A stretch of DNA of 35,318 nt from an uncultured Ignavibacteria bacterium (GTDB lineage Bacteria > Bacteroidota > Ignavibacteria > Tepidaquicellales > Tepidaquicellaceae): assembly GCA_937872315.1 (NCBI GenBank), contig CALMST010000161.1, positions 1-35,318 of the forward strand. Direction: 5' to 3'. Positions 815 to 9,004 of the stretch are shown here, in pieces; position 1 is the stretch's first letter, and each line of letters begins with the position of its first letter. The notes beneath the pieces are model-generated. The model worked only from the letters and a program-made list of their open reading frames with translations. It ran no database searches and was not told the DNA's origin. Both the position numbers and the translations under genes were made by a program.

Positions 815-2011
815 TTATAAACCGAGTAATTCAATTATCTTATCTCCGGCTGCTTCTGCCGCCTTGCCGGGGTTATAGCTTAATTGCTTTGCAAAATCTT
901 TTCTCTTATCCGATAGCTTATCAGGATCTGACAGACATTCATTTATTACTAAATGCAATTTCTCAATGTCATAAACCACATCACCCACATGACGACCGGC
1001 ATTTGCTTTGGGATCATTTTTCACAAGATCAGCAGTTGTGTCTCCAAAAGCCGAATATGTTTTCTTAAGCGTCGTCTCAAAAAATTCCGGACAGTCAATA
1101 TATATTACCGGTTTGTCAAGCATAATGTATTCAAGCGCGACACTGCTTACATCAGTGACCAGGACATCCGCGGCTTCAAGCAAAGGATCTATGCTGTTAG
1201 ACGGAACATGCCTGAAGTTTTCAAATCTGTTAAACTCTTCAAGCTCTTTAATCCAGTTTATCCCTCCCGTATAAAACATATAATTCGGTCCGTTTTCCGG
1301 ACAATAACTTATAGGATGTAATTTTACAATTAAATTTATGTTTCCGGTCTTAAGTATATTCTGAATGACTTTTTTTCCAAACTTTCTGAGAGACAATCCT
1401 TCGTCCCATGAAGGCGCATACAGAACTGTTTTTTTTAACGGATCCAGATTCAAGCCGGTCAATATTTCATCTCTGTTGTATTCACCATTGAGCAGCTTAT
1501 CAGATTTTGAATATCCAGTATCATAAAGACTGATATTCATTTCTTCAAGTTTGTATTTTCTGATCGTATTTTCAGTCTGCTCCCTGTGTAAAGGACTGGT
1601 CAGAAAATGAACATCAAAATTTACAAATTCACTTTTCTGATATGATTCATACTTTACAGGCTGATTGTGATTGATATGTATCTTCAGTGATCTTTTATTT
1701 CCTTCACCGTATATATGCGGCGAAAGAAATATGTCCGCACCGGAAAATTCCCTGCTGTGATTTACACTGAACTGTTTTCTTACCGGTATCCCAAATATTT
1801 TAAGATTTTCATTACCCGGATAATGAGTGGCTATATAATAGGAAATTTTTTTTGTCCTCTCCAGTAAAACATTGTAAATTGGAAGTATGTAAGGAATAAA
1901 TGAAAGCTCTTCAATATCAAGTATTATAATTTTCTTACCGCCTAGTTTGTCCTTAAGCATCCTGGATTTGATCTCCAGTACTTTCAGAGATGATGTGCTG
2001 TCATAACCCAA
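815..2011 (-). CDS. TagB/TagF-family CDP-alditol-type transferase, candidate phosphonate transferase
   Basis: A 398-aa protein of the CDP-glycerol glycerophosphotransferase family (GT-B fold, cytoplasmic or peripheral). Visible motifs are HINHNQPVKY (residues about 112-121), YAPSWDEG (198-205), KLHP (230-233) and the nucleotide-binding stretch LVTDVSSVALEY (284-295) followed by DKPVIY. Family members move glycerol- or ribitol-phosphate from a CDP-alditol to a glycan or polyol and release CMP. Here the gene directly follows the three genes predicted to make CMP-hydroxyethylphosphonate, and no CDP-glycerol or CDP-ribitol gene is in view, so I infer that it transfers hydroxyethylphosphonate. The start is uncertain: TTG at 2009-2011 sits directly after the upstream stop, and ATG at 1958-1960 would shorten the protein by 17 residues. 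The family call is firm; the donor is inferred. Confidence 0.85.
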   Translation of the reverse strand: MGYDSTSSLKVLEIKSRMLKDKLGGKKIIILDIEELSFIPYILPIYNVLLERTKKISYYIATHYPGNENLKIFGIPVRKQFSVNHSREFSGADIFLSPHIYGEGNKRSLKIHINHNQPVKYESYQKSEFVNFDVHFLTSPLHREQTENTIRKYKLEEMNISLYDTGYSKSDKLLNGEYNRDEILTGLNLDPLKKTVLYAPSWDEGLSLRKFGKKVIQNILKTGNINLIVKLHPISYCPENGPNYMFYTGGINWIKELEEFNRFENFRHVPSNSIDPLLEAADVLVTDVSSVALEYIMLDKPVIYIDCPEFFETTLKKTYSAFGDTTADLVKNDPKANAGRHVGDVVYDIEKLHLVINECLSDPDKLSDKRKDFAKQLSYNPGKAAEAAGDKIIELLGL

Positions 2012-3148
2012 CTATGCTATGTTCCTTAATATATTAACAATGTTTTCTTTTGTTAATCTTCTCGGATTATTTTTTAATCTTTCAGTATTAACATTTTCAG
2101 AGATCTGATTAATTGAATCTTCACCTTTGATATTCAGCTCATTTAATCTTGTTTTCAGACCGGCTGAAATTATAAGTTCATGGATCTTCATTTTTAATTC
2201 ATCAATATCCTTGCAACCGGATAATTTTGCCAGATCATCTAAACTCTGTTTTATTTCAACTGCAGATGCTCCGTCATTTACGTCATTTTCCGTAACTTCA
2301 TAATTAAACTTAAGAAATTCTCCAAGCGAAATGCAAACTGCCTGTCCGTGAGAGATTCCATAATGTGAAGTCAGATAATATGATAACGCATGAGGTCCTG
2401 TTGTCTTTGTAATGTTAATGGCTTTACCGGCAAGATGCGCCGCTCTTGACATGCTGATTCTTGATTCTTCACCGGCATCGTTTACTGCCTTGCATAAACT
2501 ATCAAATATAAGCTGAATAGCCTCTGTGCTGTATTTTCTTGATTCATCATTTGCATTTATATTCCAGTAAGATTCCATAGCCTGTGAAAAAGCATCCATT
2601 CCCGAAGTTGCAGTGATTTCTTGCGGCAATCTGAATGTGAGCTGCGGATCGACCACCGAATATTCCGGCAATATGAATTCATGCGCAAGAGAATATTTTT
2701 TGTCGCCCGAATAAACTACAGCAAAATGAGTAGCCTCACTGCCTGATCCGGAAGTCGTAGGAACTGCTATAAGCGGTTTCCCTCTCTGTATGATTTCTGT
2801 TTCACCTTTTAAAATTGATTCGGGATTGTTTGCCTGAAAACTTAAAATATTTACAGACTTTGCTATATCTATTATACTTCCGCCCCCTACCGCCAGCACT
2901 GTATCACTTTGTGTTTCAATAAAACTATCCATACCTTTTATCACATCTGCCAGTTTAGGATTTTCCGTAAAGTCCGAGAAATAATTCACATTGTATTCCT
3001 TCAATAATCCTTCAAGTAATTTTTCAGCTCCCGAAGTTTCAAATGAACTTTTGCCTCTTACTAAAAAAATATTTTTTGAATTAACGGATTTTAGGATCTC
3101 CGGAATATTCTGTATAGCGCCAATTCCAAAATACTCTTTAATATTCAA
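2012..3148 (-). CDS. Phosphonoacetaldehyde reductase (iron-containing ADH family)
   Basis: A 378-aa group III (iron-type) alcohol dehydrogenase, predicted to reduce phosphonoacetaldehyde to 2-hydroxyethylphosphonate as FomC and PhpC do. It shows the dinucleotide loop GGGSIIDIAKS (88-98), the VPTTSGSGSEAT stretch (129-140) and metal-site positions D185, Q189, H253 and H267. These have exactly the spacing of Asp196, His200, His263 and His277 in E. coli FucO, but the second ligand is Gln in place of His (GMDAFSQAMES). The gene starts at TTG 3146-3148, three bases after the decarboxylase stop, and its stop abuts the next gene, so translation is probably coupled. Specificity comes from the neighbours: with PEP mutase and phosphonopyruvate decarboxylase directly upstream, phosphonoacetaldehyde is the expected substrate. 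Confidence 0.86.
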   Translation of the reverse strand: MNIKEYFGIGAIQNIPEILKSVNSKNIFLVRGKSSFETSGAEKLLEGLLKEYNVNYFSDFTENPKLADVIKGMDSFIETQSDTVLAVGGGSIIDIAKSVNILSFQANNPESILKGETEIIQRGKPLIAVPTTSGSGSEATHFAVVYSGDKKYSLAHEFILPEYSVVDPQLTFRLPQEITATSGMDAFSQAMESYWNINANDESRKYSTEAIQLIFDSLCKAVNDAGEESRISMSRAAHLAGKAINITKTTGPHALSYYLTSHYGISHGQAVCISLGEFLKFNYEVTENDVNDGASAVEIKQSLDDLAKLSGCKDIDELKMKIHELIISAGLKTRLNELNIKGEDSINQISENVNTERLKNNPRRLTKENIVNILRNIA

Positions 3149-3151
3149 ATG

Positions 3152-4291
3152 TTATTTATTCATAAGATTATTCATAAATGATTCCTTGTTCTGATGCGGG
3201 GTTGTTGTAGGTCTGCCAAGATCTTTTCTTGCGCCTTTGTTTACTTTAATTTCAAGAAATGAGGGACCGGCGCTTTTTTTTAATTTATTAATTTCAAAAG
3301 TTATATCTTCTGCTTCTTCAGCGGAAGAAACGTATCTGTACCCGCATGCTTTTGCTATTTCCGGAAAGTTTATTTCAAACCCGGCTGTCGGCTGGCCGCC
3401 AACAGAATCATGGGCTCCGTTATTTATAACAATATGTTTTAAATTTTCAGGTGCTAATGAACCGGAAATTGCAAGAGAACCCATCTGCATTATTACAGCT
3501 CCGTCTCCGTCAAGAATGAATATCTGAAGGTCCTTCTTCACGATTGCTATTCCCAGCGCAATCTGCGAACAATGTCCCATTGATCCGACAGTTAAAAAAT
3601 CATTCTGATGCCCTTGTCCTTTTGATTCCCTGTATTCAAAAACTTCCCTGGAAGCCTTTCCTGTAGTCGACACGATCACATCTTTTTCTGAAATATTGTC
3701 TATGATCAGTTTTACAGCATCCTCTCTTCGTAATTTTAGACCTGATCCTTTTTCATTTTCCGATATATTCAGATCGTAATTTTCAAATGTACCGTCTGAT
3801 ATTATTAATGCCACCGGGCTTTTGCTTATAAACATTTCTTCAATCAGCCTGTCAATTTTTTCTGAATACTCCCCTGTATCTCCGGTTAAATGCTCATATC
3901 TGATACCCATAGAATCAAGCAAACTCAGCATTACTTTTCCCTGTTTTATATGCTGAGGTTCGTCTTTCTTTCCGGGCTCACCTCTCCAGCCTATCATGAG
4001 AAGCATCGGTATTCCGTACACTTCCGGGTCAGCCAGCGAGAGCAGCGGATTTATTGAATTACCAAGTCCCGAATTCTGCATATATACAAGTGCGGGTTTT
4101 CCGGTTGATAAATAGTGACCTGAAGCTAAAGCTACTGCCGCTCCTTCATTTGAATTTATAATATGCTTTTCCACGGGAGAATTATCAGTAACATATGAGC
4201 AGAAATTTTTAAGTAATGAATCAGGCACTCCTGTATAAAAATCTATACCCTTTGTTTTCAAATAATTAAATAAATCTTCTGGTCTTATCAC
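3152..4291 (-). CDS. Phosphonopyruvate decarboxylase (ThDP-dependent)
   Basis: A 379-aa thiamine-diphosphate enzyme that decarboxylates 3-phosphonopyruvate to phosphonoacetaldehyde. This step pulls the unfavourable PEP mutase equilibrium forward. The N-terminal Pyr domain has FYTGVPDSLLKNF (18-30), the catalytic E49 in the EGAAVALASGHY motif, and MQNSGLGNSINPLLSL (71-86), all typical of Ppd/Fom2/AepY. The C-terminal PP domain has VGSMGHCSQIALG and the ThDP/Mg motif GDG (262-264) to NN (290-291). Length matches the family (about 375-400 aa) as a single chain. The start is GTG at 4289-4291; a clear GGAGG lies about 10 nt upstream, inside the last codons of the PEP mutase gene, and decides this start. 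Confidence 0.93.
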   Translation of the reverse strand: MIRPEDLFNYLKTKGIDFYTGVPDSLLKNFCSYVTDNSPVEKHIINSNEGAAVALASGHYLSTGKPALVYMQNSGLGNSINPLLSLADPEVYGIPMLLMIGWRGEPGKKDEPQHIKQGKVMLSLLDSMGIRYEHLTGDTGEYSEKIDRLIEEMFISKSPVALIISDGTFENYDLNISENEKGSGLKLRREDAVKLIIDNISEKDVIVSTTGKASREVFEYRESKGQGHQNDFLTVGSMGHCSQIALGIAIVKKDLQIFILDGDGAVIMQMGSLAISGSLAPENLKHIVINNGAHDSVGGQPTAGFEINFPEIAKACGYRYVSSAEEAEDITFEINKLKKSAGPSFLEIKVNKGARKDLGRPTTTPHQNKESFMNNLMNK

Positions 4292-4309
4292 TTTTTATTT
4301 TCCTCCGGG
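4280..4309 (-). promoter_or_regulatory. Shine-Dalgarno and GTG start of the decarboxylase gene
   Basis: Read on the minus strand, the 3' end of the PEP mutase gene holds GGAGG just before its TAA stop, followed after about 10 nt by GTG. This is one of the few strong ribosome-binding sites in the window. It fixes a non-ATG start and couples the two phosphonate genes. Confidence 0.6.
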
Positions 4310-5596
4310 GATAAGATTGAGTATCTCACCAATTGGCATCATTTTATTATCCGCTTCAAATGATCTTCCATTTTCAAGAATGGATTTAGCTGTTTCCAGC
4401 ATGGCAGGATATGCGCTGCGCAATAGCTGATTTGCATAAATTACAATGTTAACACCGGCGTCTGTAAGCTCTTTTTCCGTTATTACATTATATGAAGATG
4501 GGACTGCGACAAGTGGTACTTTACTTTCAAATTTCCTGTAACCTTCGCAGAATTCAAGTATTTCCTCCGGACTCTTTTCCTTGCTGTGTATCATTATCCC
4601 GTCGGCTCCCGCTTCGATATAAGCTCCTGCTCTCATTAATGCATCCTCCACTCCCTTCCCTAGAATCAGACTTTCTACTCTTGCAATGATCATAAAATCT
4701 TTTGTGATCTGTGATCTTTTACCAGCTGAGATCTTGGCAGAAAAATTCTCCGGCGTGTCCTGACTCTGATCGACATCAGTACCAAACAGGGAATTCTTTT
4801 TTAAACCCACTTTATCCTCAATGATCACTGCAGAGACTCCGAGCCTCTCAAGCGTCTTTACTGTAAATACAAAATGTTCGGCTCTTCCTCCGGTATCACC
4901 GTCATAGATAATGGGCTTGGTTGTAACTTCAATTATATCATTCAAAGTCTGCATCCTTGCTGTTACATCCACTGCTTCAATATCAGGTTTCCCTTTAGCT
5001 GTGGAATCGGTCAGACTGCTGAGCCACATTCCGTCGAATTCCTTCGGGATGCTGTCTTTTTCGATTTTTAAATTCTCCACTATCAGTCCTGTAAGACCAT
5101 TATGAGCTTCAATAAGTCTTACCAGTGGTTTCACTTCAAGTAATCTTTTTAATCTTTGCATCCGGATCTCCGGAGTAGTACCTATCTCTTTCATACCAGA
5201 GTTAAGCTGAGTCGAGGAAATTCCTTTTGTGTATTCAACTTCTACAAGCTCTCCTCCCCATTCTGCAAGAGTATCTATGACCCTCTGTCTTGTGCCGCTC
5301 TGAACGCCATTCTTCCAGTCATCTCCGTGTACCACATAATCAGGCTTAACCATTTTAAGATTAGCTACATAATCCAGAGTCTCCTGCGGAATGACATTAG
5401 CCACTCCCTTGATATTTTCTATAATAATTTTTCTCTGATCATAAGTAAGAAACGGAAGTCTTTTGTAACTTGCTATGGCTTTGTCTGTCAGCAGTCCTAT
5501 TGTAACCTGTCCTAACTTCCGTGCTTCGTTTATAATGTTCAGATGACCGGGATGTACCAGATCTGCGCTCATTCCTACATATACTTTCTTACTCAT
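4295..5596 (-). CDS. Fom1-like cytidylyltransferase-phosphoenolpyruvate mutase fusion
   Basis: A 433-aa bifunctional protein. Residues 1 to about 138 form a TagD-like cytidylyltransferase with H15-P-G-H18 (HxGH) and ISSTQ (126-130). Residues about 150-433 form phosphoenolpyruvate mutase, with the family signature [10 protein letters not shown] (260-269) and DGDTGG (232-237). PEP mutase makes the C-P bond (PEP to phosphonopyruvate). In Fom1 of fosfomycin synthesis the same domain order occurs, and its N-terminal domain puts CMP on 2-hydroxyethylphosphonate. With a decarboxylase and a reductase three bases downstream, the expected substrate here is also hydroxyethylphosphonate. Aminoethylphosphonate is less likely because no phosphonate transaminase is seen. 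The ATG start overlaps the upstream GT2 stop by 4 nt. Both domains keep their key motifs. Confidence 0.93.
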
Positions 5597-6591
5597 GCTG
5601 CAACTTTATTTTTGATTGTATCACTGTTTTTAATAATCCAGTCTCCTTTTGTAAGAGCTGTTCTGAATTTTTTATCGGAAATTATTTTCATTGTATATTT
5701 GATCTGAGCTGTATAAAAAGCTGTTCTGAAAATTGAATACTTTTCATTTTTTTCGTCAAACTTTAAAGAAGCTTTTAATTTGTTGAGTTTCCATTTCATG
5801 GCCTGCTTCAATGCAAGAAACATATTCCAGATCAAAACTCTGTACCCTTTTTTTTCAATAGCAAAAATATTATAAGGGATACAGATACCATTGTTCATAA
5901 ATCTTCTCTTTATGTCTTCTACGGTTGCATTCTTTTTAGCTATCTGATAATGCTCCATTATAGCCTTAGGAGCCCAGCCTATAATATAGTTTTTATTTTT
6001 CAATCTTAACCAGAGACCGGTTTCACCGTCACCCATAAGCCATTCTCCGATCATTTCCGGATTAAAACCGCCTACCTCTATCAGTATATTTTTTTTGATA
6101 CTAAGATTTCCTGCATTCATATACAATCCCGCACTATATTTGATCTCATCACCATAGTTCAGTTTTCCGAGAAAATTTTCGTATTCACGTATCCAGAGAG
6201 GAGGTTCTTCATCCCATTTTATCAGGATCTTACCTGCCACTCCTACAGCTTCTTTATTTAATTCAAAAACATTCCGGATTTCTTTTAACCAGTCCGGCGA
6301 CAATATTCCGTCATCATCCGTAAAACTCAATATCTCATTCTCAGCAGCCAGTATTCCGATCTGTCTTGCATATACCTGACCTGGTTTTGGGATAAAATAA
6401 TATTTTATCTCTGTATCCGGATAATCCTTTATATACTTTTCTATGACTTCTTCAGTATTATCAGAAGAATTGTTATTGATAATAATGATCTCATAATCAG
6501 ATTTAGGAAAATTCTGATTTATTAATGAGTCCATGCACATTGGTATGGTCCCTGCCCTGTTAAAAGTTGTAATTATAACCGAAAATTTCAT
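5593..6591 (-). CDS. Family 2 glycosyltransferase
   Basis: A 332-aa GT-A fold enzyme. The N-terminus reads [14 protein letters not shown] (3-16), followed by [12 protein letters not shown] and the metal-binding FTDDDG (90-95, DDD at 92-94). The acceptor-side motif [11 protein letters not shown] (about 185-197) is typical of inverting GT2 enzymes. The C-terminal third contains a hydrophobic and basic stretch (residues about 245-275) that may bind the membrane. It probably adds one sugar to the repeat unit on the inner face of the cytoplasmic membrane; donor and acceptor cannot be read. The stop overlaps the ATG of the PEP mutase fusion (ATGA), which ties its expression to the phosphonate genes. 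This hints that it may add the sugar that later carries the phosphonate. Confidence 0.9.
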
Positions 6592-6618
6592 CCCATTAAA
6601 CCCAGCTTTGAAATTGAT

Positions 6619-7311
6619 TTAATATATCCCACCGTTTATATCCACTGAAGTCCCGTTTATATAATCTGACTGAATAATAAATTTGACCGCATTGAAAATA
6701 TTTCCCGGATCTCCGAATTTACCGGTTGGGATTTTCTTTTTAACTATCTGCTGATAATCTTCACTTACTTCATTTATCATTCCGATATCAAAATAACCAA
6801 GATTAAGATTATTTATTGTGATACCTTTACTTGCATTTTCCACTGCCATACTTCTGGTCATTCCCCAGAGCCCGGCTTTTGAAGCGGCATAAGCACTTGT
6901 ACCGGGAATTCCGGTTTCAGCCACAATAGATGAAAAATTTATTATCCTCCCGTAACCCTGCTCTCTCATAACAGGAAGAAATGCTCTTATTGTATTGTAA
7001 GTACCTGTCAGATTGGTTTCTATGACTTTGCTCCATTCCGCGGGAGATGATTTATGCGCAAAGCAGTTGTAATTATTTCCAGCGCAGTTTATGAGCTTTA
7101 GATTTTTAATTTCAGGTCTTAACATTTCAGATAAATTCTCAAGCTCTTCATACTTTGTTATATCCAGCCTGAAGAATTTATCATTTCCGGACAACTCTTC
7201 ATTTTCATTTAAATAAGTGCCGATTACTTTTTCGTCAATGGTGTTTGCATCAGAAAATTTTTCAAATAAAAATTTACCTATTCCTCTTGAAGCTCCCGTA
7301 ATTAATATCAT
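6619..7311 (-). CDS. Short-chain dehydrogenase/reductase
   Basis: A 230-aa classical SDR with the Rossmann motif TGASRGIG (5-12), NCAGN (75-79), the catalytic serine in INFSSIV (124-130), and Y141-xxx-K145. The C-terminal GTSVDINGGIY matches the family end. Length is slightly short but all catalytic residues are present. It sits between a GT2 gene and a GT-B-like gene with gaps of about 28 nt, so it probably reduces or oxidises a sugar or a substituent in this pathway. A FabG-type role in making an acyl substituent is possible. The substrate cannot be assigned. The start is ATG. Confidence 0.88.
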   Translation of the reverse strand: MILITGASRGIGKFLFEKFSDANTIDEKVIGTYLNENEELSGNDKFFRLDITKYEELENLSEMLRPEIKNLKLINCAGNNYNCFAHKSSPAEWSKVIETNLTGTYNTIRAFLPVMREQGYGRIINFSSIVAETGIPGTSAYAASKAGLWGMTRSMAVENASKGITINNLNLGYFDIGMINEVSEDYQQIVKKKIPTGKFGDPGNIFNAVKFIIQSDYINGTSVDINGGIY

Positions 7312-7339
7312 GCTAATTTTCTTTTAAATTATTTTAAGA

Positions 7340-9004
7340 TCAGGCTGATGTTCTGATTTGTTCTTTTTCATCTACATGGGTCAGCTGTACGAGTTCTTCG
7401 GGAAGTATGAAATCTTTCCCGTCAATAATTTTATCACAAATAAAATCCATGAATTTGTTTTTTCCCGGTATGAGATAATTCAGTTTACTGAAATCTATGT
7501 GAAGATCTTCTCCTATTGTCGGAAGCAGGGGAATTTGTTTCTGTATAAAATATATATAAGCATATTTCCAGGCATGATCAAGTTTATCCTCATCCAGTTT
7601 ATTGATTCTCCCTGCTGTCATCAGAAGTTTTTTGTAATCCTCATGGTCTTTTGCGTCATAAGTAAATCCCTTTTTTGAATAATGAGCATCCCCTGCAAGT
7701 ATGACAGGTTTGCCTTTCAGTGAAAGTTCCAGTCCGCCGGTTCCCATCACGGTGACGGCACCATTGAGTATATTATAAAAATCTAGCGGACTTATGTCAT
7801 CATCCATTTTTATGACTTTTATATGCGGCGGCAGATCAGGGAATTCTTTTTCTATGAATTTCTGACAGCCAGTTTCAGGATTATCGTTTAACTCTGACGG
7901 ATGTATCTTTATTAACCATTGTACATCTTTTACATCATAAATTATTTTTATCGTTTCAGATAACCATTCATCAAAACTTTCATGTAACATATCAAAATAA
8001 TCGGAAACTGCATCCCAGTTTATATGTGTCATGATTCCCCAGACAGGTTTATTTTTATCCAGACCGTACTTTTCATAGATAAGATCGTCATTTCCCTTAA
8101 ATTGCTTCATCAGACCTTTCATATCCTGAGTTACATTTTCGTGATATCTCCTGTTCAGAAAATTCAGTAACCTCTTTTTATGAACATCCGACATTCCTTT
8201 TGAATAATAATCTTCCCAGGAATCCTTACTGATAGTTAAAAATGTATCGCTTGTCTTCTTTACCGTACCAAAGAAAAAATGGGCGGTAAGATAGCAGCAG
8301 ATATATGAAGTAACCGGAATTTTTCCGTTCAGAAACACACTAAGAGCCGGACCCCAGTCTGCATATATTCCATGAGACATATATACTCTGGAAGGAGAGA
8401 ATTTTTTAATCGCATTCAGAGAGGCTTCAGTATTGATAAGTACAGTAAATGCATACTCTTTTAAAATGTCTTCCAGGCCTTCATAAGAACCGCCTCTGGT
8501 ATGTCTCATCATTGATGATTCCATATGAGATCCAAGATGAATACCTTCATGGGAAAGTTCTTTATAATTTTTTAAAGTGGTTTTATCAGCTTCGATCCTC
8601 AGCTGCCTGACTTTGCTATCTGACACAAGTTCGCTGATGAATGTAAAATCAATACCTAATCTCTCAAGGATCTTTGCATTCTGCCTGATGCAGCTTTTGC
8701 AGAAGCTTCCCCAGTCTTTCATTTCCACATCAGGGAAGTCAATTCTTTTAGCACAGGCTTTATACACCCCGTCGCACAGTATGACCCTGACCCTGTGTCC
8801 TCTGAGTTTTAAGGAACTGGCTATTACTCCTTCAAGATTAGTCTGAATTATCATCCCGCCTGTAGACCAGAATAAAACAGATTCAGATTTCCCGTTTAAC
8901 TTTAAAGAATTGCTGTAAAATTTTTTAAGTTTTAAATTGCTGTTGAGTTTCTTTATATACTTATTTTTCAGAAGTATACTTTTCATGCTAATGACAAGAT
9001 CCAA
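7340..9004 (-). CDS. Capsule-synthesis-like GT-B protein, function unknown
   Basis: A 554-aa cytoplasmic protein not firmly recognised. The C-terminal half has features of the Capsule_synth/KpsC-KpsS group of glycosyltransferases: WLIKIHPSEL, then VMGTGGLELSLKGKPVILAG followed by AHYSKKGFTYDA, where a GT-B nucleotide-sugar site would lie. The N-terminal half holds a cysteine pair (CKSC) and YMSHGIYADWGP. It is longer than most TagF or GT1 proteins. It is probably a glycosyltransferase for the glycan built here; it could also be a polymerising or phosphate-transferring enzyme. The start is unclear: TTG at 9002-9004 or ATG at 8984-8986 (six residues shorter), neither with a good ribosome-binding site. 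Confidence 0.6.
   Translation of the reverse strand: MDLVISMKSILLKNKYIKKLNSNLKLKKFYSNSLKLNGKSESVLFWSTGGMIIQTNLEGVIASSLKLRGHRVRVILCDGVYKACAKRIDFPDVEMKDWGSFCKSCIRQNAKILERLGIDFTFISELVSDSKVRQLRIEADKTTLKNYKELSHEGIHLGSHMESSMMRHTRGGSYEGLEDILKEYAFTVLINTEASLNAIKKFSPSRVYMSHGIYADWGPALSVFLNGKIPVTSYICCYLTAHFFFGTVKKTSDTFLTISKDSWEDYYSKGMSDVHKKRLLNFLNRRYHENVTQDMKGLMKQFKGNDDLIYEKYGLDKNKPVWGIMTHINWDAVSDYFDMLHESFDEWLSETIKIIYDVKDVQWLIKIHPSELNDNPETGCQKFIEKEFPDLPPHIKVIKMDDDISPLDFYNILNGAVTVMGTGGLELSLKGKPVILAGDAHYSKKGFTYDAKDHEDYKKLLMTAGRINKLDEDKLDHAWKYAYIYFIQKQIPLLPTIGEDLHIDFSKLNYLIPGKNKFMDFICDKIIDGKDFILPEELVQLTHVDEKEQIRTSA

Follow-up and report, generated by a model that had tools for sequence, protein, structure and literature searches.

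A TagF-like protein encoded in an ignavibacterial phosphonate cassette as a candidate CMP-hydroxyethylphosphonate:glycan phosphonyltransferase

We analysed a window of 35,318 nucleotides, which is one whole contig (C161) from a 4.56-Mb, 96%-complete genome of an uncultured Ignavibacteria bacterium, and found a gene for a TagF-like protein directly downstream of a set of phosphonate genes. On genomic grounds, this protein is a putative CMP-hydroxyethylphosphonate (CMP-HEP):glycan phosphonyltransferase, a function to which we assign a probability of about 0.66. An earlier note on this DNA had proposed the same phosphonyl-transferase interpretation from the letters alone, and the analysis lends it support: no CDP-alditol synthase was found, and the protein did not cluster with canonical members of its family.

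Phosphonate cassette and its glycan setting

On the minus strand, genes for a GT2 glycosyltransferase, a PF01467-PEP mutase (PepM) fusion, phosphonopyruvate decarboxylase (Ppd), an Fe-dependent alcohol dehydrogenase (Fe-ADH), the TagF-like protein, and an AAC(3)-type acetyltransferase follow one another 5' to 3' (Table 1), separated by intergenic gaps of -4, 3, 3, 0, and 21 bases, so that they very probably form a single operon. The TagF-like ORF starts at a TTG that immediately follows the Fe-ADH stop codon, and an alternative in-frame ATG at codon 18 is kept in 9/9 relatives. The AAC(3) gene adjoined the TagF-like gene in eight of nine orthologous loci, with the ninth locus ending within the TagF-like gene. 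The cassette sits in a glycan setting, since it is surrounded by glycosyltransferases, nucleotide-sugar genes, a Wzt/Wzm-type exporter, and Wzc-like proteins. In ignavibacterial cassettes, the next gene after AAC(3) encodes a DUF4910/DUF2172/HTH_47 protein (L021:7242-8525 and L024:10724-12013), which was seen again near a viral HEP cluster (L103:13476-14882).

Table 1. Features of the TagF-like gene and its neighbours in the window
Feature	Position	Strand	Evidence
AAC(3)-family N-acetyltransferase, runs off contig end	2..793	-	PF02522 94.3 bits
TagF-family (PF04464) protein, 398 aa; putative CMP-HEP:glycan phosphonyltransferase	815..2011	-	Pfam, nine orthologues in one operon context, fold
S289-S290 of TDxSSVALE, equivalent of DYSS donor-binding motif	1142..1147	-	alignment
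H232 (KLHP), equivalent of TagF H584	1316..1318	-	invariant in nine, alignment
K169 in GYSKSD, replaces Arg of GYPRxD	1505..1507	-	alignment
H115-N116-Q117-P118 vs H-G-T-P of TagF (H444-P447); putative base and headgroup loop	1658..1669	-	9/9 invariant, alignment
Fe-dependent alcohol dehydrogenase, putative phosphonoacetaldehyde reductase giving HEP	2012..3148	-	PF00465 130 bits
Phosphonopyruvate decarboxylase (Ppd)	3152..4291	-	TIGR03297 496.6 bits (cut-off 312.5)
Cytidylyltransferase-PEP mutase fusion	4295..5596	-	N-terminal PF01467 47.6 bits, PF13714 187.1 bits, TIGR02320 395.6 bits (cut-off 319.6)
PEP mutase motif EDKxxxxxNS	4790..4819	-	sequence; motif from PMC6697681
GISST motif of fused domain, intact	5210..5224	-	sequence
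IASYKR signature of fused cytidylyltransferase	5459..5476	-	comparison of fusions
HPGH nucleotidyltransferase motif of fused domain, intact	5543..5554	-	sequence
Upstream conserved genes: GT2, SDR, Capsule_synth-like GT-B protein	5593..9004	-	profile matches and locus comparison

Profile searches bore out the earlier reading that a TagF-family gene abuts phosphonate genes, with Fe-ADH, Ppd (TIGR03297), and PepM (TIGR02320) as the neighbours. Three features of phosphonyl tailoring (Pnt) clusters were present, namely a PEP mutase with EDKxxxxxNS, intact cytidylyltransferase motifs (HPGH and GISST), and a Ppd scoring over its cut-off. The Fe-ADH certainly belongs to family PF00465 and is 35% identical to the Segatella copri gene annotated as phosphonoacetaldehyde reductase; its score on TIGR03405 (199.5 bits) lies under the cut-off of 423.7.

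In the proposed pathway, the mutase domain would convert PEP to phosphonopyruvate and Ppd would convert this to phosphonoacetaldehyde, two steps assigned from strongly scoring families. Reduction of phosphonoacetaldehyde to HEP by the Fe-ADH is probable, given a certain family and a model score below cut-off. The fused TagD-like domain would then join HEP and CTP into CMP-HEP, as its intact motifs and the precedent of Fom1 (cited in PMC6697681) suggest.

Comparison of the fusions revealed a signature in the cytidylyltransferase domain that follows the neighbouring gene. Wherever the pattern was readable, xIA[SD]YKR was the sequence in fusions next to an Fe-ADH gene, whereas four fusions with another gene at the Fe-ADH position (L069 and L071-L073) read VTKxSR; in L069, an AEP cluster, the slot is held by a class V aminotransferase. 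The TagF-like gene was absent from these four VTKxSR (AEP-type) clusters. IASYKR versus VTKxSR is a possible substrate-specificity determinant, and the signature, as a correlation, fits a domain tuned to HEP or AEP with the TagF-type transferase paired with the HEP kind. Elsewhere, a CDP-alcohol phosphotransferase (PF01066; L075:10246-11130) adjoins an AEP-type PEP mutase cluster, which suggests phosphonolipid synthesis at that locus.

Family, active-site residues, and phylogeny of the TagF-like protein

The TagF-like protein matched Pfam PF04464 with 60.1 bits (cut-off 22.1; E 2.4e-16), placing it in the superfamily as a divergent member, and a genome-wide profile search identified it as the sole PF04464 match in the genome. 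On the TarF equivalog model of NCBIfam, it scored 35.6 bits against a cut-off of 550, level with the 34.4 bits of the BFO_1060 glycosyltransferase model; the latter counts against a phosphonyltransferase. The nine ignavibacterial orthologues are 62-86% identical.

The sites described for TagF/Cps3D (PMC11666461) mapped by motif to H115, N116, Q117, P118, K169, A199, K230, H232, S289, S290, and E294. The two essential histidines of TagF, H444 and H584, whose roles are described in PMC11666461, correspond to H115 and H232 and are invariant in 9/9 orthologues. The base, the pyrophosphate-binding histidine, the donor-loop serines, and the glycerol-pocket proline are retained (P447 of TagF is the proline to which the glycerol pocket owes its small size; PMC10299916), whereas the Gly-Thr beside the base has become Asn-Gln, two arginines have become lysines, and one aspartate has become glutamate; the catalytic and CMP-binding frame has therefore been kept and the headgroup loop altered. 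All nine orthologues read NHNQP where TagF has WHGTP, so that the canonical WHG(T/N)P is missing; this loop and the replacement of both arginine contacts by lysine speak against the phosphonyltransferase function. The altered loop would suit a small headgroup other than glycerol, although it is no proof of one.

If the donor is CMP-HEP, H115 would activate a glycan hydroxyl for attack on the phosphonyl phosphorus, with the leaving group held by H232 and the TDxSS loop; the products would be an HEP ester on the polysaccharide and CMP. A further proposal, that the TagF-like protein acts as a polymerase in which the last HEP hydroxyl is the next acceptor, would yield a teichoic-acid-like poly(hydroxyethylphosphonate) with a C-P backbone. 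It is conceivable because HEP, unlike AEP, has a free hydroxyl as in glycerol phosphate, but we regard it as very unlikely.

The AlphaFold2 model (pLDDT 81; loop 105-130 low, at 58-64) predicted a GT-B fold like that of TagF. The top Foldseek match was Staphylococcus epidermidis TagF (E 3.2e-12), and VIA-align gave TagF a Z of 18.4 over 323 residues (rmsd 6.1), with UDP-GlcNAc 2-epimerases tying with it, as expected from the GT-B fold common to both. A PDB profile search with the nine-sequence alignment returned nothing relevant; the link to TagF came only from the fold comparison and the S. copri protein described below.

Molecular phylogenetic analysis united the nine ignavibacterial proteins, on a long stem, in a single clade (100/100) separate from the canonical TagF/TarF group, whose own clade excluded them with support of 97/93, rising to 100/98 after removal of four long rows. 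In the pruned tree, the nearest relatives were two short Bacteroidota proteins encoded in glycosyltransferase clusters (L079 and L084; 92/91), and a sister position of the ignavibacterial clade to the canonical group had a p-AU of 0.30; these trees rest on distant sequences and have a weak backbone. Clustering with ordinary glycerophosphotransferases, which the earlier note had named as evidence against its proposal, was thus not found. Its question of whether members beside PepM fusions form a clade of their own received a divided answer: the nine ignavibacterial proteins do, but the S. copri protein falls inside the canonical TagF/TarF group, and an AU test rejected a joint clade of the two (p-AU 0.0004). 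PepM-adjacent TagF-like proteins are therefore not one clade and their pairing had more than one origin, a stronger argument for a shared function than a single clade would be.

Donor supply and pairing with PEP mutase fusions

As claimed earlier, the window has no CDP-glycerol or CDP-ribitol synthase, and the same holds for the genome as a whole, which is 96% complete. The earlier statement that no TagD-like domain exists apart from that fused to PEP mutase applies to the window but not genome-wide: five PF01467 proteins were found, of which four, identified by NCBIfam, are housekeeping or heptose enzymes (CoaD, NadD, RibF, and HldE-II, a heptose-1-phosphate adenylyltransferase domain) and the fifth is the PepM fusion. 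The single IspD-family cytidylyltransferase over its cut-off was IspD itself (217 bits, cut-off 181), and the ribitol-5-phosphate cytidylyltransferase model stayed under its own cut-off in the genome, which thus has no TarI. Nor was TagD found in the seven other operon-bearing genomes: nothing scored above 58 bits, and the best matches included the PepM fusions themselves, compared with 172.6 bits for the positive control, a true TagD beside a TagF-like gene in genome G296. The genomes searched are 91-98% complete; a synthase may have been missed in one of them, but hardly in all eight, and a CDP-glycerol synthase elsewhere in the genome, which would have spoken against the proposal, was found in none. 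LicD was likewise absent from all eight operon-bearing genomes, and no CDP-alcohol phosphotransferase occurred among the scanned window proteins. Without the TagF-like protein, the cassette has no recognisable user of CMP-HEP.

Among 44 genomes of the host's order, nine carried the TagF-like gene and eight carried the PepM fusion, all eight being among the nine carriers. In each of these (8/8), the TagF-like gene lies in the same operon as the fusion; in the ninth carrier, a genome with 67% completeness, the contig breaks off within Ppd. The order PepM-cytidylyltransferase, Ppd, Fe-ADH, TagF-like gene was constant across the nine orthologous loci wherever the contig allowed; the relatives with this operon are MAGs titled Ignavibacteria/Ignavibacteriae or Bacteroidetes bacterium. 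The naive probability of this co-occurrence is 5e-8, a figure that treats repeats of a single cassette as separate: the nine orthologues come from related MAGs and represent one inherited or transferred cassette, not nine events, and separate cases are therefore more telling.

Such a case was found in Segatella copri (plasmid record NZ_CP085933), where a PEP mutase fusion, aepY, phosphonoacetaldehyde reductase, and a CDP-glycerol glycerophosphotransferase family protein follow the order of the window. A tblastn search of plasmids with the TagF-like protein of the window gave no match. The S. copri transferase, WP_006848639.1, is of the canonical type, with WHGNP and 119 bits to S. epidermidis TagF. 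In its triple fusion (L099:9287-11296), the middle PF01467 domain lacks both HxGH (NSAH) and GISST, and a LicC-like nucleotidyltransferase domain has been added at the N-terminus, as judged by eye and from the triple fusions in PMC6697681. This domain apparently replaces the dead PF01467 domain, so that cytidylyl activation was seemingly kept by replacement.

On the viral contigs L113 and L114 (68 bits) and L121 (23.7 bits, just over the cut-off), the PepM fusion is immediately preceded by a PF04464 gene. Most viral HEP clusters carry other candidate genes in place of PF04464, and two HEP-type clusters from the same phylum are not easily reconciled with the pairing: in L074, PF04464 is missing from the surrounding 9 kb or so, and in L070 the neighbour lacks the first catalytic histidine. 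This neighbour, a 443-aa PF04464 protein, was considered as a further case and rejected, as it reads VQYSF at the position of the base and has relatives in five other genomes that are not beside PepM.

About three dozen IMG/VR contigs (L101-L136) contained PepM-cytidylyltransferase fusions or related cytidylyltransferases, most with an Fe-ADH and a Ppd split in two, and viruses appear from these gene sets to carry HEP pathways. A family of about 380-400 aa with no Pfam match (A4) adjoins the fusion in viral HEP clusters, lying directly upstream of it in L109-L112, L115-L117, L119, L120, L127, and L129 and being fused to it in L118 (8867-11269; 801 aa). Its low-confidence model (pLDDT 59) resembles alkaline-phosphatase-superfamily enzymes and sulfatases, and A4 may be another phosphonyl transferase or a hydrolase. 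A LicD-domain protein lies directly upstream of the fusion in L103 (8646-9986), and an 853-aa protein in L136 (2730-5288) unites GT2, LicD, and TagD-like domains.

Alternative explanations and known systems

The main rival, which we consider rather unlikely, is that the protein is an ordinary PF04464-like GT-B glycosyltransferase or hexose-1-phosphate transferase that uses a UDP-sugar and belongs to the operon only as a glycan builder. Domains of the PF04464 type also transfer hexose-phosphate (PMC5974469), and the parity of the BFO_1060 and TarF scores, the tie with UDP-GlcNAc 2-epimerases, the altered WHG motif, and the location of the nearest relatives in the pruned tree (L079 and L084) in glycosyltransferase clusters all point the same way. 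Against this, in the host's order the TagF-like gene is always accompanied by phosphonate genes on contigs that extend far enough, the same slot in S. copri is filled by a separately recruited PF04464 protein, and the cassette would otherwise be left with no CMP-HEP user. Confidence in the phosphonyltransferase function is held at the level given above because of this rival, the misfit of L074 and L070, and the use of some other gene by most viral HEP clusters.

It is quite improbable that the product of the operon is a small-molecule phosphonate or a phosphonolipid, with CMP-HEP used by another enzyme and the TagF-like protein in a side role. In fosfomycin biosynthesis, CMP-HEP occurs transiently as an intermediate (Fom1, cited in PMC6697681), and L075 pairs an AEP cluster with a CDP-alcohol phosphotransferase gene, but the cassette described here is embedded in a polysaccharide locus and neither LicD in the genome nor a CDP-alcohol phosphotransferase among the scanned window proteins was found. 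Still less probable is an ordinary CDP-glycerol or CDP-ribitol transferase: the family assignment and the retention of the proline of glycerol-phosphate transferases as P118 agree with it, whereas the lack of TagD and TarI in the genome and of TagD in seven operon-bearing relatives, the position outside the canonical clade, and a TarF equivalog score far under its cut-off do not.

The putative phosphonyltransferase resembles TagF/TarF/TarL (PF04464; PDB 3L7I-3L7M and 8VA1) in its GT-B fold, two essential histidines, YAP[TS] and TDxSS motifs, and CMP as the proposed leaving group. It differs in forming its own clade, in NHNQP for WHGTP and lysine for two arginines, and in that its genome has no CDP-alditol synthase, its partner being the PepM-fused cytidylyltransferase. 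Like the Pnt pathway with PntC (PMC6697681), the cassette combines a PEP mutase and a Ppd with a cytidylyltransferase that would activate a phosphonate destined for the cell surface; fusions of PepM to PF01467 are numerous (PMC6697681). PntC in that study is a PF12804 protein acting on AEP, whereas HEP is proposed here, together with a PF04464 protein for the transfer step, which that study left open. Fom1 of fosfomycin biosynthesis is also a PF01467-PEP mutase fusion and involves CMP-HEP, which in that pathway is carried on to a small antibiotic; the present cassette lies in a polysaccharide locus, and no such genes were seen in the window. LicD-type phosphocholine/polyol-phosphate transferases likewise use headgroups activated with CMP or CDP and are encoded next to phosphonate genes (PMC6697681; viral contig L103), but they belong to another protein family, one absent from the eight genomes searched.

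Our search of the open-access literature returned no paper linking phosphonates with the glycerophosphotransferase (PF04464) family; on CMP-phosphonate transfer, only the PntC paper (PMC6697681), according to which it is not known how phosphonyl tailoring proceeds after CMP activation, was relevant, and no characterised transfer enzyme was found. What we claim as new is the donor, for a family already known; the kind of system is not new. Most bacterial phosphonate capacity is directed to cell surfaces (PMC6697681), and 2-hydroxyethylphosphonate ranks with the most abundant phosphonates in the high-molecular-weight dissolved organic phosphorus of the sea (PMC8931226). With residues defined and two unrelated versions available, one ignavibacterial and one from S. 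copri, the missing transfer step becomes directly assayable, and the TagF-like family would serve as a marker gene for HEP-bearing glycans.
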